Source of the DNA: Prevotella herbatica
GTDB lineage: Bacteria > Bacteroidota > Bacteroidia > Bacteroidales > Bacteroidaceae
Assembly (NCBI RefSeq): GCF_017347605.1
Contig: NZ_AP024484.1
Location: 2,680,501-2,744,500, forward strand
Direction of reading: 5' to 3'
DNA: 64,000 bases
Position numbers and translations under genes: made by a program. Below, piece after piece: positions 43,907 to 53,815 of this stretch (within the stretch, counting starts at the first letter, position 1; the number at the start of each line of letters is the position of its first letter). Under the pieces are notes generated by a model. That model saw only the letters and a list, made by a program, of their open reading frames with translations. It was not told where the DNA came from and made no database searches.

Positions 43907-43938
43907 GGGAAGTCAGTAAAGACTGACTTCCCTTTTTT
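43907..43938 (+). terminator. Glycogen-operon terminator
   Basis: Perfect 11-bp stem GGGAAGTCAGT/ACTGACTTCCC with a 4-base loop, then TTTTTT. Confidence 0.92.
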
Positions 43939-43952
43939 GTTCGCCCTGCATG
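43932..43952 (+). repeat. 21-bp direct repeat, left copy
   Basis: Identical to 44533-44553: CTTTTTTGTTCGCCCTGCAT plus one G. It begins in the T-run of the terminator and enters the HigB fragment. Confidence 0.85.
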
Positions 43953-44532: not shown

Positions 44533-44553
44533 CTTTTTTGTTCGCCCTGCATG
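44533..44553 (+). repeat. 21-bp direct repeat, right copy
   Basis: Exact copy of 43932-43952, 601 bases downstream. With the left copy it brackets the HigB fragment and HigA. Confidence 0.85.
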
Positions 44554-44590: not shown

Positions 44591-44749
44591 TATAAAGCTG
44601 GAATACTGAATATTATCATTGATAAATTCAAAGATATATCTTCAGCAGAAATATCAGCAATGAGTCACAAAGAAGATCCATGGAAAAAATATCATGACTG
44701 CGACAATCTCATTTCATATAATGAAGCATTCAAATTGAGTACTGTCTGA
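44591..44749 (+). pseudogene. Panacea-domain (DUF4065/SocA-like) C-terminal fragment
   Basis: 52 residues ending FKDISSAEISAMSHKEDPW....ISYNEAFKLSTV, which fits the C-terminus of Panacea antitoxin-type proteins (SHKEDPW block). It has no start codon and an upstream stop at 44588. Probably a remnant of another toxin-antitoxin unit. Confidence 0.55.
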
Positions 44750-44757
44750 CTATTGAA

Positions 44758-44856
44758 TGAATATACCGTTCCCGCTAATTCCCGCAGATATTCTTTTCTT
44801 TGTAGGTAACTATAGCATCTGCTAAAGCAGATGTATTCTCCCATAGATATCTTTCC
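44758..44856. repeat. Dispersed CGCAGATT repeat, copy 4
   Basis: Contains TTCCCGCAGATATTC, the hairpin GCATCTGCTAAAGCAGATG and TCTCCCATAGAT, all of which recur in copies 5 and 8. Confidence 0.65.
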
Positions 44857-44900
44857 TTACTTTCATTTCCGAAACAACATAGATTACTTTTCACCTGTGG

Positions 44901-44927
44901 CAGTTGTCAAGTAATCCTTGACAACTG
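44901..44927. repeat. Perfect inverted repeat, 11-bp arms
   Basis: CAGTTGTCAAG, five bases, then CTTGACAACTG. The GTTGTCAA/TTGACAAC word resembles the ends of the CRISPR repeat, possibly by chance. Confidence 0.5.
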
Positions 44928-45010
44928 AGTTTCATTCTAACTCTTTATCCTTTAGTACATTAACAATATACATACTAGCATAAAGAATAGAGGTGATAAA
45001 AAATTTAAGC

Positions 45011-45084
45011 AAAAAAATGGGTGACTCTCGCCACCCTAAATGTTTTCACAACGGAATAATCCTTATTGTGATTAGCTAAATTTT
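45011..45084 (-). ncRNA. tracrRNA
   Basis: On the minus strand the anti-repeat (45084-45065) is complementary to the first 20 bases of the repeat in its minus-strand orientation, 19 Watson-Crick pairs and one G-U pair without a bulge. It is followed by a nexus-like hairpin GGA-TTA-TTCC and the stretch CCGTTGTGAAAAC, and ends in a GC-rich hairpin (GGGTG/CACCC) with seven T (45011-45017). The region pairs crRNA to Cas9. It lies divergent from cas9. Confidence 0.82.
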
Positions 45085-45087
45085 ATG

Positions 45088-45119
45088 CAAATATCATGAT
45101 TATTTTTGTAAATTGCAAA
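45088..45119 (-). promoter_or_regulatory. tracrRNA promoter
   Basis: Minus-strand TTTG (45116-45119), 20 bases, GATATTTG (45088-45095), which differs by one base from TAnnTTTG. Transcription would begin at the edge of the anti-repeat. Confidence 0.6.
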
Positions 45120-45138
45120 TTTTAAGACATTTTTTTTA

Positions 45139-45146
45139 TAACTTTG
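45139..45146 (+). promoter_or_regulatory. cas9 promoter -7 element
   Basis: TAACTTTG ends 29 bases before the cas9 ATG at 45176. A possible TTG at 45113-45115 is 23 bases upstream, slightly long. Confidence 0.55.
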
Positions 45147-45175
45147 CTAATACTTTAACCAAAACAACACTAATT

Positions 45176-48100
45176 ATGGCAAAAATTCTAGGTTTGGACT
45201 TAGGAACCAATAGTATAGGATGGGCATTAGTTGATAATACCAGTAAACAAATTATCAAAGCAGGAAGTAGAATTATTCCCATGGATGCAAAAGCTATGTC
45301 TGACTTTGAATCAGGTAATCTCCAATCTTCAGCAGCAGCAAGGACTGAATTCAGAGGCATTCGTAGATTAAATGAACGTGCAGAACTCAGAAGACAAAGA
45401 TTACTCCGAGTGCTGAATGTACTTAATTTCTTACCTGCTCACTTTCAAAAACAAATTGATTTCGATAAGCATCCCGGACAATTTATTAACCATGGTGAAC
45501 CCCTTTTGCCATATCGAAAGGATAGCAATAATAAAAATGAATTTATATTTATGGATTCATTTAAGGAGATGCTTGAAGAATTTAGAGAGATTCATCCTGA
45601 TATGTTGGCTGAAGGTCGCAAGATACCTTACGACTGGACTATATATTATTTGAGAAAGAAGGCTCTTATTCAGCCAATTAAACGAGAAGAATTGGCGTGG
45701 ATATTGCTCAACTTTAATACAAAACGTGGTTACTATCAACTGCGTGGTGAAGAGGATGATATATCAACTTCTAAGAATGAAGAATACAAGGTGCTTAATG
45801 TTGTTAATGTAGAAAAACTGGATGCAGTAAAAAATAAAAAAGGATTGTATTGGTACGATATTACTTACGATAATGGTGCCAAACAACGCAAAACTGGTAT
45901 CATTGATCCTAGAAATATAGGTGACCAAGTTGAAGTTATTGTCACTACAACTTTAGATAAAGAGGGAAATATAGCTTTAGATAAAGAGGGAAATCCTAAG
46001 ATTAAACTGCGCGATCCTCAAGAAGGCGATTGGACTCTGATGAAAAAACGAACTGAGGCGGATCTGAATAATAGAAATATTACTGTAGGTGAATATATAT
46101 ATGATTCAATTCTTGCAGACCCTACAATTAAAGTTAGAGGTAAACTTGTTAAAACCATTGAACGCAAGTATTATAAAGAAGAATTGATTAAAATTCTCAA
46201 TAAGCAATGTGAATTTATACCAGAGTTAAGCGACTCAAATATTTATGAAAAGTGTGTAAGAGAATTATATCATAATAATGAGGCACATATTCAATCTCTG
46301 TATCAATCTAGTTTTACGAGTTTCTTTGTAGATGATATTATTTTTTACCAGCGCCCACTTAAAAGTAAGAAAAGCGAAATAGCTAACTGCCCTTATGAAC
46401 ATTATCAGTTTGTAAATAAAGACACTGGGGAAATCGTAAAGCAACCTATAAAGGTTATACCTAAGTCACATCCCATTTATCAGGATTTCAGACTATGGCA
46501 GTTTATTTCAAATCTGCGAGTGATTCAGAAAGAAAAAAATGAAAATGGGAAATTGAAAACAGACGTAGATGTTACAGATGAATTTATAAATACAGCAGAG
46601 AAACGTTGTAAACTCTACGAACAACTTAACGTACGCAAAGATATTAACAATAATCAGTTTGTTAAGTTGATTTGCAAAGAGAACGCTTCTCTGTATAGAT
46701 GGAATTATGTTGAGGATGATAAAACTTATCCTTGTAACGAAACTCGATATCTCATAAACCGAGATAACATATTGCAAAGTGATGAGCGATATAATAAGAA
46801 AGAAATTGAATTATGGCATATATTATATTCTGTAAATGATCCTATTTTGCTAAGAAAAGCACTCAATACTTTTGCAACTAAAAATGGTCTTGATGTGGAG
46901 ACTTTTGTAGAGGATCATATCCATATTAAGCCATTCAATGCTGATTATGGTGCATATTCAGAAAAAGCTTTAAAACGATTACTACCACTTATGCGTATAG
47001 GTAAATACTGGCATGAGGAGGATATTGATGCAAAGACTAGAAGTAAGATTGATATTATAATAGCTGGAGATGCTGATGATGCAATCTATGATGTAGCTGC
47101 AAAAAATCATATTAACTTGTCTTCAATTGACTCATTTCAAGGATTACCACTATTTCTAGCTGAGATGATTGTTTACGGCAAACGTAAAGAAGTGGGTATT
47201 TGGAAATCTCCAGATGACATAACGTATTATCTCAAATATGATTTTAAACAGCATGCGCTACGTAATCCGGTTGTAGAAACTGTGTTAGGAGAAACATTGC
47301 GTGTTGTCAGGGATATATGGGCTAAATATGGCAAAATAGACGAAATACATGTTGAGATGGGACGCAATTTAAAGCAGTCTAAAGATAAGAGGATAAAGGA
47401 CATGCAGCGTAATTCAAATAATGAACATACAAACTTGAGAATACGAAGACTACTTCAAGAGTTTGTAAACCCTGACTGTGAAATAGATAATGTGCGCCCA
47501 TATTCTCCATCTCAGATGGAACTCTTTAAAATTTACGAAACAGATGTGCTTAATTCAAATGAACCTGATGATGATATTTTGTCTATAATCAAAGACCTTG
47601 GAGACACATCTAAACATGTATCTCATCAAGAAATTATTAAATATAGATTGTGGCTTGAACAGAGATACACATCTCCATATACTGGTGATATGATACCATT
47701 GTCAAAGCTCTTCACCCCAGCCTATGAAATAGAACATGTAATACCTCAATCTAGATATTTCGATGACTCACTTAGTAATAAAGTAATCTGCGAAAGCGAA
47801 GTCAATAAGCTGAAAGATAATAGATTGGGATACGAGTTTATTGTTGCTGAGCATGGTCACATCATTGGTAAGCATCGTGTATTTGATAAAATACAATACG
47901 AGGAATATGTGAGGGAGCACTATGCCAATGACAGACTTAAGATGAAAAAATTATTAATGGAGGACATTCCTGATTCGTTCATCCAGAAGCAACTTAATGA
48001 TAGTAGATATATTGCTCGTAAGACCATCGAGATCTTGTCTAGTGTCGTTAGAGTAACTGATGAGAGCGGAGAAATAGCTGATAATGATAAGGCAGCAACA

Positions 48101-49644
48101 GCTATAAATGTAATAGCTACAAATGGCTCAATTACAGATCATCTTAAAAAAGATTGGGGCGTTAAGCAAGTATGGAATCATATTATAGCACCTAGATTTG
48201 AGCGATTAAATAAAATTACATCAACGGAGCAGTTTGGTAAATGGATTGAGAAAAATGGAAAAAGGTATTTCCAAACTGAAGTTCCGATTGATCTGTCCCC
48301 TGGTTTCAATAAGAAACGTATAGATCATCGTCACCACGCAATGGATGCAATCGTTATAGCTTGTGCTACTCGCAACCATGTTAACTATTTGAATAACAGT
48401 GCTGCTATTGACAAGAAGGCTGATTTACGTATGGACTTGCGTAGCAAACTCTGTTTTAAGGATAAGACTGATGGTAATGGCAACTATGTATGGCGACTTA
48501 ACAAGCCATGGGATACTTTCACACAAGATGTTGAGTCACAACTAGATTCTATTATTGTCAGTTTTAAGCAGAATTTACGTGTAATTAATAAAATGACCAA
48601 TCACTACTCACATTATGTGAATGGAAAGAAAGAAATCGTTTCCCAGAATAGTACAGAGAGTTGGGCGGTTCGAAAATCTTTGCATAAAGCTACTGTATCT
48701 GGTGCTGTACGTCTGCAAACACAAAAGAAGGTTAGCTTAAAAGATGCATTGAACACCGATTGGCATCTCATAGCTGATAAAGAAGTACGCAAAGCCATTA
48801 AAGATATAATTGCACAGTATCACAAATTCGATACTAAAATCATACTAAAGTATTTCAAAGATCGAAAAAATGAGTTGAATGGAAAAGATATATCAAAGGT
48901 AGTTGTATATTATACCCCTGAAGTTCCTGAACTATCAGCTTCAAGAATAGCTATTGATGATACATTTGATGAGAAAAAAATCAATGCAGTTACAGATAGT
49001 GGAATACGTAACATTCTACTTAATCATTACAAAGCAAACGACAGTGATCCTAAATTGGCTTTCTCTCTAGAAGGTATTACCCGAATGAATCAGAATTTTA
49101 AAGAACTGAATGGAGGTAAAGACCACAAACCAATTATGAAGGTGAGAAAATTCGAAACGCTAGGAATGAAATTTTCAATAGGTGAAAGAGGTAATAAAAA
49201 TAAGAAATATGTTGAAGCTGATAAAGGAACAAATTTATTTTTTGCTATTTATGCAGATAAAGATGGAAATCGTTCATTTGAAAGCATACCTTTTAATGAA
49301 TCTCTGGAATGCATGGAAAATAATTTGCCAGTGGCAAAAGACATCAATGATAAAGGCGAAAAACTTCAGTTTATATTATCTCCTGGAGACTTAGTTGTTG
49401 TAACAGATGAAAATGGTACTATTCCAAATGTGGATAATGCTAGGATTTATAAAATGATGTCATCATCTGATAAAGATTGTTTTTTTATCCCCCAATCAAT
49501 TGCGATGCCTATTGTTAAGACAGCCGAATTAGGCTCAAATAATAAATCTGAGAAATCATGGGATGGCGTGGCTATTAAAAAGAACTGTTTCAAACTAATT
49601 GTAGATCGATTAGGGAATGTTGAAAAAATAATCAAAGGGAATGT

Positions 49645-49648
<4 letters not shown>
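45176..49648 (+). CDS. cas9: Cas9, type II-C
   Basis: RNA-guided DNA endonuclease, 1,490 residues, large for the II-C subtype. The start at 45176 (MAKILGLDLGTNSIGW) is placed behind the -7 element; the frame is open to 45113 but would begin upstream of it. RuvC-I D8; Arg-rich bridge helix about residues 60-80 (RRLNERAELRRQRLLR); RuvC-II E727 (HVEMGRNLKQ); HNH E853-H854 (YEIEHVIPQSRYFDDS); RuvC-III H1054 and D1057 (RIDHRHHAMDAI). All catalytic residues are present. A short in-frame duplication (DKEGNIALDKEGN) lies about residues 259-274. Confidence 0.97.
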
Positions 49649-50914
<1,266 letters not shown>

Positions 50915-51022: not shown

Positions 51023-52576
51023 GTTGTCAATGCACTTGCAAAGATATGAAAAATTTAGCTAATCACAACATCAAAACGCATGACGAACTGTACTGCCAGT
51101 TGTCAATGCACTTGCAAAGATATGAAAAATTTAGCTAATCACAACCTATATTAGTCAAACCCTCTGGTGTAGGCAGTTGTCAATGCACTTGCAAAGATAT
51201 GAAAAATTTAGCTAATCACAACGGTTGGTAGGTAATTACCTTTCTTGTCAGCGTTGTCAATGCACTTGCAAAGATATGAAAAATTTAGCTAATCACAACA
51301 GTGACTTTCTTGGTAAGATAGAAAGCACGTTGTCAATGCACTTGCAAAGATATGAAAAATTTAGCTAATCACAACTAATATCATCGTGTTTTATACCGAA
51401 CCCTAGTTGTCAATGCACTTGCAAAGATATGAAAAATTTAGCTAATCACAACTGTTGATGGTAGCGAACAAGCTGCCGATTTGTTGTCAATGCACTTGCA
51501 AAGATATGAAAAATTTAGCTAATCACAACTAGTGACGGCACGGTTAAAACTATCAGAGAGTTGTCAATGCACTTGCAAAGATATGAAAAATTTAGCTAAT
51601 CACAACCCTCGTACGATTACACCTATACGGAGAGCGGTTGTCAATGCACTTGCAAAGATATGAAAAATTTAGCTAATCACAACAATTATTCTCTTGAATA
51701 ATATCATTAACTGTTGTCAATGCACTTGCAAAGATATGAAAAATTTAGCTAATCACAACTTGATAATACCTATTCTTATTGTTCTAAGGTTGTCAATGCA
51801 CTTGCAAAGATATGAAAAATTTAGCTAATCACAACTTAATACATCTGATATTCGTTTGGCACGTGTTGTCAATGCACTTGCAAAGATATGAAAAATTTAG
51901 CTAATCACAACCATAATCAAACAGTCTTTTACATATACCTGTTGTCAATGCACTTGCAAAGATATGAAAAATTTAGCTAATCACAACCCAAGTCCTTCAG
52001 TCCTTCTTCTCCGTGCAGTTGTCAATGCACTTGCAAAGATATGAAAAATTTAGCTAATCACAACTACGGTCGTGGCGTTCGTGTTGACGCTAAAGTTGTC
52101 AATGCACTTGCAAAGATATGAAAAATTTAGCTAATCACAACCTAGCACAGGGTTACAATTTCAGCAAGGTCGTTGTCAATGCACTTGCAAAGATATGAAA
52201 AATTTAGCTAATCACAACTTTGTCAAGGAAGCGTAACGGCACGTAGAAGTTGTCAATGCACTTGCAAAGATATGAAAAATTTAGCTAATCACAACCAGAT
52301 ACCGACAAACTGTAATAGACATTGCGTTGTCAATGCACTTGCAAAGATATGAAAAATTTAGCTAATCACAACAGATGGACTTTCATCAGGATTTTAATTG
52401 TGTTGTCAATGCACTTGCAAAGATATGAAAAATTTAGCTAATCACAACACCTTATCATTTGCTTTGGCGTCCGTTCCGGTTGTCAATGCACTTGCAAAGA
52501 TATGAAAAATTTAGCTAATCACAACCCATGTTCATCTTAGAACGTCCGATTCCGTGTTGTCAATGCACTTGCAAAG
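51023..52576 (-). CRISPR. CRISPR array: 20 full 47-bp repeats plus one truncated repeat, 20 spacers
   Basis: First repeat 51023-51069, last full repeat 52479-52525; repeats begin GTTGTCAATGCACTTGCAAA and end TTTAGCTAATCACAAC on the + strand. All 20 look identical. Spacers are 29-30 bases. A 21-base truncated repeat (52556-52576) closes the right end. I assign transcription to the minus strand because each repeat then contains a promoter (TTG at repeat bases 2-4, TATCTTTG at 24-31), the first 20 bases match the tracrRNA anti-repeat, and every spacer is followed by a full repeat. Spacer targets could not be found in this window. Confidence 0.95.
52556..52576 (-). promoter_or_regulatory. Truncated end repeat with leader-type promoter
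   Basis: Only 21 repeat bases remain, the part downstream of the -7 element on the minus strand. The preceding non-repeat base pairs with it to give TACCTTTG (a perfect -7, 52573-52580). It would drive the first spacer. Confidence 0.55.
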
Positions 52577-52653
52577 GTACACAAAAAATAATACACAAGA
52601 ATGGTATTATATAAATTTTTCAAAGAACAATTCAAATCTATAAAAACGCAAAA

Positions 52654-52975: not shown

Positions 52976-53446
52976 TTAAGGCTTTACGACTCCGCCGTTT
53001 GGATCACCTGTTTTTGGTGCACCCTTGATCTTGTTGTACTCTGCGTACTCCTTGACCTGCGTACCGGTTACCAATGCCTTGGTGCGTGTCTTTGAACCTG
53101 CGTCTACATGTGCTTCCGGACTGAAGCGGATGTTGACTTTCTTGATGTTCTTGGCTGGTGTGAACTCCTTGATACTGTCTGCGCCTACACATTTCAGTGT
53201 GAGCTTGAATGAACCTAGTCCTGCGATCTTTACGATTTTTGAGTCCTGAAGTTCGGCTGTCATCACCTCTGCAAGTTCTGTGAGTACTGCTAGTACATCA
53301 CTCTTTTTAACTGAGCAGTTTGCCTGAATCTTTTCTGCCATGTCATCAAGTTGAGCTATTCCGTGATAGACGGCACGAGCGTAAAACTTGTTATAGGTTT
53401 TCAGATTCTTTTTGTTTTTGTTCATGTAAATTTTGTAATTCAGCAT
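52976..53446 (-). CDS. HU-family DNA-binding protein, Bacteroidetes variant
   Basis: About 156 residues; I chose the ATG at 53446 (MLNYKIYMNKNKKN), behind AAAGGAAAAAG, over a longer frame. It has an HU-type fold (VKKSDVLAVLTELAEVMTAEL, VKIAGLGSFKLTL) and a long C-terminal tail. These proteins accompany VirE/smalltalk cassettes. It probably shapes DNA of the element. Confidence 0.85.
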   Translation of the reverse strand: MLNYKIYMNKNKKNLKTYNKFYARAVYHGIAQLDDMAEKIQANCSVKKSDVLAVLTELAEVMTAELQDSKIVKIAGLGSFKLTLKCVGADSIKEFTPAKNIKKVNIRFSPEAHVDAGSKTRTKALVTGTQVKEYAEYNKIKGAPKTGDPNGGVVKP

Positions 53447-53639: not shown

Positions 53640-53815
53640 AGGTCTGTTCTCCCATAGATTCACGCTGATATTCTTTTGTTTTATTACTCGTTCTTTGCAT
53701 GTGTAAACGGCCTATTCTCTCGCAGATTACGCTGATTCACGCAGAGAAAGACAGATTGGGGCAATAGATCTGCTAAAGCAGATGTCGCAGAGAACGCAGA
53801 CAAAAGACAGTTTGG
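53640..53815. repeat. Dispersed CGCAGATT repeat, copy 5
   Basis: Starts with TTTTGTTTTATTACTCGTTC then TTTGCATGTGTAAACGGCC and CTATTCTCTCGCAGATTACG, a long leading segment that also ends copy 8 in inverted form. Includes the hairpin ATCTGCTAAAGCAGAT. Confidence 0.75.

Follow-up and report, generated by a model that had tools for sequence, protein, structure and literature searches.

Positions 45119 to 45011 of the 64,000-nt window of Prevotella herbatica DNA analyzed here, read on the minus strand, very probably comprise the promoter and gene of a type II-C tracrRNA, with a sigma-ABfr-type promoter that runs up to the edge of the anti-repeat. This is an ordinary tracrRNA gene of a CRISPR-Cas9 locus, more orderly than surprising. 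Sigma factor use, exact transcript starts, processing, and the function of the tracrRNA system are all deduced here from sequence. A conserved promoter in a fixed register makes exact 5' ends predictable and hints at minimal forms of the tracrRNA for Cas9 enzymes of this group.

Organization of the locus

The host genome (3.52 Mb, single contig) carries within the window a type II-C system made up of the tracrRNA gene, cas9, cas1, cas2, and 20 exact 47-nt repeats. The three cas genes, all on the plus strand, were named by profile matches: cas9 at 45176 to 49648 (TIGR01865, E = 8.7e-118; PADLOC Cas9), cas1 at 49645 to 50595 (TIGR03639, type II, NMENI, E = 1e-88), and cas2 at 50609 to 50914 (TIGR01573, E = 2.3e-20; start codon picked by eye). 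Neither csn2 nor cas4 is among these identified genes, in keeping with type II-C. The array occupies 51023 to 52525, with its crRNA strand on the minus strand, and is accompanied by a terminal half-repeat (52556 to 52582, minus strand) that retains the promoter part, TACCTTTG, and has lost the pairing part. The next listed open reading frame past the array, at 52976, lies on the other strand.

On the minus strand, the order of elements is TTTG, 20 nt, GATATTTG, CAT, anti-repeat, conserved core, and terminator. Specifically, the putative -33 element TTTG (45116 to 45119) and -7 element GATATTTG (45088 to 45095) precede the anti-repeat AAAATTTAGCTAATCACAAT (45065 to 45084), which pairs with repeat positions 1 to 20 at about -24 kcal/mol. 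The conserved core CACAATAAGGATTATTCCGTTGTGAAAAC and an intrinsic terminator stem-loop (45019 to 45036; fold of -13.1 kcal/mol), followed by ATTTTTTT, complete a predicted tracrRNA of ~74 nt (45011 to 45084) that ends at the terminator T run; three terminator-like sites fall within 44700 to 45300, against a shuffle mean of 0.1. The initial annotation, which set the -7 element 3 bases from a 20-base anti-repeat and TTTG 20 bases upstream, was exact in its coordinates. The tracrRNA core has one match in the host genome at up to three mismatches, and no better anti-repeat was found genome-wide: outside the array and the tracrRNA, the sole site within three mismatches has three, and a reversed-pattern control likewise returned one match. 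An Rfam search gave six matches up to E = 10, each under its gathering score.

The two elements agree with the sigma-ABfr consensus (TTTG near -33, TAnnTTTG near -7), taken from the two-part promoter known from Bacteroides as described in the available portion of PMC7366714; the -7 box of the window matches at five of six positions. When a 91-nt stretch was shuffled 20,000 times with dinucleotides preserved, 16.7% of the shuffles had a 5/6 or better box within 8 nt of the anti-repeat if TTG was ignored, and 1.2% did if TTG at N19 or N20 was also required. At these chance rates, the promoter of the window, taken alone, is only suggestive.

Conservation of the predicted tracrRNA promoter in relatives

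We assembled two sets of relatives. The first comprised 61 loci chosen by Cas9 similarity, the window included (L003, being the window's own locus, was left out), 56 of which had the tracrRNA core; L066, L068, L094, L102, and L117, whose stretches lack a full core, were left out, as was L112 from counts that require a repeat of at least 45 nt. For the second, we screened 395 genomes of the phylum for the tracrRNA core; 26 of them matched, yielding 24 new loci (L139 to L141 were left out, their genomes being already within the first set). Comparisons with repeats used only loci with a detected array, that is, 43 of the 56 with a tracrRNA.

An exact TAnnTTTG lies 24 to 37 nt before the end of CACAAT in 47 of the 56 loci (mean of 2.7 and maximum of 7 in 200 shuffles) and is missing in nine, while a box of 5/6 or better is found in 54 (shuffle mean, 25.9; maximum, 36); the window's own 5/6 box is 23 nt before the end of CACAAT. 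In the second set, 8/24 loci carry the exact box (shuffle mean, 0.68; maximum, 4) and 18/24 carry one of at least 5/6. Further, across the 72 promoters of at least 5/6 from both sets, TTG occurs at N20 in 32 and at N19 in 10, whereas every other spacing between 14 and 25 accounts for 0 to 5 of the 72; N19 and N20 are those of host gene promoters. The locus counts are not independent, because the loci are related. It is conservation in relatives that makes a strong and convincing case for the predicted tracrRNA promoter of the window.

The register of this promoter bears on where the transcript would begin. We set +1 four bases past the G of the -7 box, a placement that follows from the -33/-7 numbering. 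In 38 of 43 loci, the duplex with the locus's own repeat begins -2 to +3 nt from this predicted +1. The median offset is 1, and that of the window, where the predicted +1 is 45084, is 0. Longer duplexes go with boxes farther from the core (rho = 0.46, P = 0.002, n = 43); L109 and L110 have 11 to 12 unpaired nt ahead of the duplex under strict scoring. With the box conserved, TTG spaced, and 38/43 loci in register, the earlier proposal that the tracrRNA starts at the anti-repeat is well supported as a prediction. The duplex had also been described as 20 bp without a bulge; its length and lack of a bulge stand, but one pair, the terminal one, is G-U, leaving 19 Watson-Crick pairs. Being bulge-free is not special: an ungapped comparison with the locus's own repeat gives at least 16 matches over positions 2 to 18 in 22/43 loci, and the remaining loci match theirs mostly via a 1-nt shift. 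As a separate observation, the repeats of L085 and L088 deviate from GTTGTG, with the anti-repeat end CACAAT unchanged.

On the plus strand, cas9 is probably transcribed from a divergent candidate -7 box, TAACTTTG (45139 to 45146), located 29 nt 5' of the ATG, for which TTG is absent at N19 and N20. A plus-strand box lies between the anti-repeat and the ATG in 17/53 loci (4.4 expected), with 11 of the 17 at 26 to 35 nt. Four compact loci (L067, L069, L076, and L110) have the anti-repeat 72 to 90 nt from the cas9 ATG and no plus-strand box between the two; there, a plus-strand box lies inside the tracrRNA gene, 72 to 76 nt upstream, and so a cas9 mRNA from that box would have an antisense, repeat-like 5' end.

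Predicted promoters within the CRISPR repeats

Each repeat of the window carries, on the crRNA strand, TTG at positions 2 to 4, N19, and TATCTTTG at positions 24 to 31. Exact TAnnTTTG boxes occur in the repeats of 40/47 loci (mononucleotide shuffles: mean, 1.05; maximum, 6), 25 of which, the window's pattern among them, share the placement of box at 24 to 31, TTG at 2 to 4, and 16 nt to the spacer. The position of the box predicts crRNA starts near position 35, ~13 nt before the spacer. The terminal half-repeat of the window is 0.85 identical to the repeat over the promoter part and 0.50 over the pairing part. Of the 36 arrays that end within their stretch (11/47 ran off it), 12 finish in a distal half-repeat from which the pairing part is gone and in which the promoter and start part persists, with the box intact in 8 of these 12, and none has the reverse. 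This pattern is consistent with the available part of PMC12080349, where the extra repeat of II-C arrays is described as mutated mostly in its first 15 nt.

These features lead us to propose a route to the guide RNAs. RNA polymerase with the primary sigma factor would start the tracrRNA at its first pairing base: because the sigma-ABfr-type promoter ends at the anti-repeat edge, the transcript is expected to run from about 45084 to about 45011, a length of ~74 nt, and its very first base would form the first pair with the crRNA. Since every 47-nt repeat bears its own predicted promoter, crRNAs would be made unit by unit, each begun within the upstream repeat near position 35. The two RNAs would then pair over repeat positions 1 to 20 and be loaded into Cas9, and completing the guide would take no more than one RNase III cut. 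Inside the tracrRNA, GTTGTGA equals the first 7 nt of the repeat and closes a predicted hairpin (45046 to 45071, minus strand) with the anti-repeat end; given that TCACAAT is predicted to fold on GTTGTGA in the free tracrRNA, crRNA binding would presumably have to displace this hairpin.

More tentatively, the II-C repeat of Bacteroidota may be a fused handle and promoter, and the tracrRNA gene the complement of that handle with a promoter of the same class, a generalization to which we give somewhat less than even credence. Repeat positions ~1 to 23 would pair with the tracrRNA and also hold the -33 box, positions 24 to 31 would be the -7 box, and the rest would be the start zone. If so, both guide RNAs would be born with nearly final pairing ends, a lengthening of the anti-repeat would invade the promoter, and, in contrast to Campylobacter, crRNA starts would lie ~13 nt ahead of the spacer.

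Origin of the tracrRNA gene and alternative explanations

The origin of tracrRNA from a CRISPR repeat is an idea already discussed in the literature. The initial annotation applied it here, reading the plus strand as a decayed repeat plus promoter and deriving the tracrRNA gene from a relocated repeat; on this view, the promoter would come from the repeat's own. We consider this unlikely. The anti-repeat does match its own locus's repeat best in 29/43 loci and ranks it among the top three in 42/43, and own-repeat similarity inside the predicted transcript is 37.2, against 25.2 for other loci's repeats (n = 41); however, the anti-repeat match needs no explanation other than pairing. Past the start, the window does not rise above shuffles. 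Compared ungapped, the plus strand matches the repeat at 19/20 positions and then at 7/27 (26/47 in total), and when the stretch past the start is aligned with gaps to repeat positions 24 to 47, the score is 17, which is reached by 27% of stretch shuffles and 18% of repeat-tail shuffles; against the repeats of other loci, the same score compares with a mean of 13.5, and 5/46 are equal or better. Aligning the segment with the repeat thus revealed no homology above shuffles past the paired, transcribed part, and the decayed repeat is not borne out.

A weak own-locus excess does favor relocation. Beyond the start, own repeats score 12.98 and others 12.35 (n = 41; permutation P = 0.04, not composition-corrected), the window giving 17 against 13.7; over the 20 nt upstream of the box, the values are 0.398 and 0.360 (P = 0.003, not composition-corrected), with the window at 0.40 versus 0.29. 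The 8 nt downstream of the box show no own-locus excess across the 41 loci. Solitary repeat heads near the tracrRNA of L083, L086, and L088 also count on this side. Separately, a loose gapped alignment extended past the anti-repeat in many loci; we judge this extension mostly spurious, because strict scoring, the cross-locus control, and window shuffles remove nearly all of it.

The promoter had been thought to resemble the repeat's own. This is trivially so, both being of the sigma-ABfr type, but it does not extend to any specific likeness: the flanks of the tracrRNA and repeat promoters agree at 8/19 positions, which 35% of background promoters equal or exceed, and downstream of the box they agree at 2/6, with 76% of the background as good. 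This background was drawn from the window plus 400 kb of the host genome, where 151 gene-upstream regions contained TAnnTTTG 112 times in sense and 52 times in antisense orientation. The 112 sense boxes were followed by C in 68 cases and by CA in 45, and TTG enrichment was confined to N19 and N20 (15% each; 0 to 3% elsewhere from 15 to 23). Since host gene promoters show the same C and TTG spacings, the shared features reflect the general consensus. Orientation argues further against the repeat as the source, as an inverted repeat placed here would fire toward cas9. With flank scores at background, own-repeat scores close to it, and the orientation wrong, we do not accept the promoter as a sign of relocation, and descent of the gene from a relocated repeat is not supported; the conserved sigma-ABfr-type promoter removes an apparent argument for descent of the tracrRNA from a repeat. 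A very ancient repeat origin of the gene is possible.

A slightly less probable alternative is that a promoter farther upstream gives rise to a longer transcript, trimmed back by RNase III, as the main tracrRNA, with the box at the anti-repeat being secondary. Long tracrRNA forms are known in the II-A system of Streptococcus pyogenes (available portion of PMC11417352), and in L083 a crRNA-like repeat head precedes the tracrRNA. Against this, we found no clear second promoter within 44991 to 45300, a range with no exact minus-strand TAnnTTTG, and the two-part promoter keeps its register with the anti-repeat across loci. The other promoter class covered was sigma-70, for which a scan gave two sites, both on the plus strand (2.9 expected). 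That the box arose by chance in AT-rich DNA while an unrelated element drives the tracrRNA is highly improbable: loose 5/6 boxes are indeed frequent in shuffled loci, as they are in the window shuffles when TTG is ignored, but exact boxes and TTG at N19/N20 stand far above shuffles and other spacings.

Comparison with described II-C systems

The comparisons that follow draw on the available portions of the cited papers. The II-C system of Campylobacter jejuni (PMC3656092) offers a precedent for the model proposed here: its repeats each contain a promoter, as predicted for the window, its tracrRNA is likewise encoded separately and includes a perfectly complementary stretch, and this tracrRNA has short forms of about 62 and 74 nt. 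It differs in its promoter class, in the placement of the -10 box at the 3' end of the repeat rather than at positions 24 to 31, and in crRNA starts, which lie at spacer position five in C. jejuni and are predicted ~13 nt before the spacer in the window.

Prevotella intermedia (PMC5608340) likewise has a II-C system with a 47-nt repeat, an anti-repeat upstream of cas9, and a tracrRNA opposite to the cas genes. Its authors reported two anti-repeats, with a promoter not strongly predictable for either. L113, a locus from the genus of the window, has a repeat identical letter for letter to that printed for P. intermedia ATCC 25611, and its anti-repeat bears TTG-N20-TATCTTTG. Riemerella anatipestifer (PMC5006608) shares the 47-nt repeat of a II-C system and has a 16-nt anti-repeat upstream of cas9. 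According to its authors, the repeats hold no promoter; by our reading of the available text, the leader tool used there was not designed for Bacteroidota promoters. For the II-C systems of Flavobacterium columnare and Flavobacterium psychrophilum, a repeat-encoded promoter was proposed from a TTG motif, and a sigma-ABfr-type box was named for one Flavobacterium cas9 (PMC8092290, PMC10309648); tracrRNA transcription was "not revealed" in one study (PMC10309648) and the tracrRNA was not validated in the other (PMC8092290). The literature searched, which consisted of papers free of subscription and included PMC13431127, offered no mapped tracrRNA promoter for a Bacteroidota II-C locus in the portions available. 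Thus, as far as these sources extend, we propose a tracrRNA promoter where the Bacteroidota papers predicted or determined none.

Upstream repeat heads and flanking sequences

The tracrRNA of L083 (53% Cas9 identity) is preceded by a second repeat head, crRNA-like in character and situated ~210 nt before the cas9 ATG. The 13 nt on the 5' side of this head are identical to a site ~35 nt before that ATG (13 reached in 2/20,000 flank shuffles). The layout of this II-C locus is that of the long tracrRNA of S. pyogenes that represses cas9; L083 shows no clear promoter for a long form. Among five genomes of its genus searched, only G318 also matched, and it lacks the flank and target part. Solitary degenerate repeat heads also lie upstream of the tracrRNA in L088 (~330 to 450 nt) and L086 (~380 nt before cas9), and their 5' flanks have no exact match of at least 8 nt in the cas9 upstream region searched.

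Two repeated sequences were also noted around the locus of the window. An exact 21-nt sequence, CTTTTTTGTTCGCCCTGCATG, occurs twice, at 43932 to 43952 and 44533 to 44553, 601 nt apart. Finally, the palindrome ATCTGCTAAAGCAGATG is found on either side of the locus, at 44817 to 44834 and 53768 to 53785, with 14 exact copies genome-wide.
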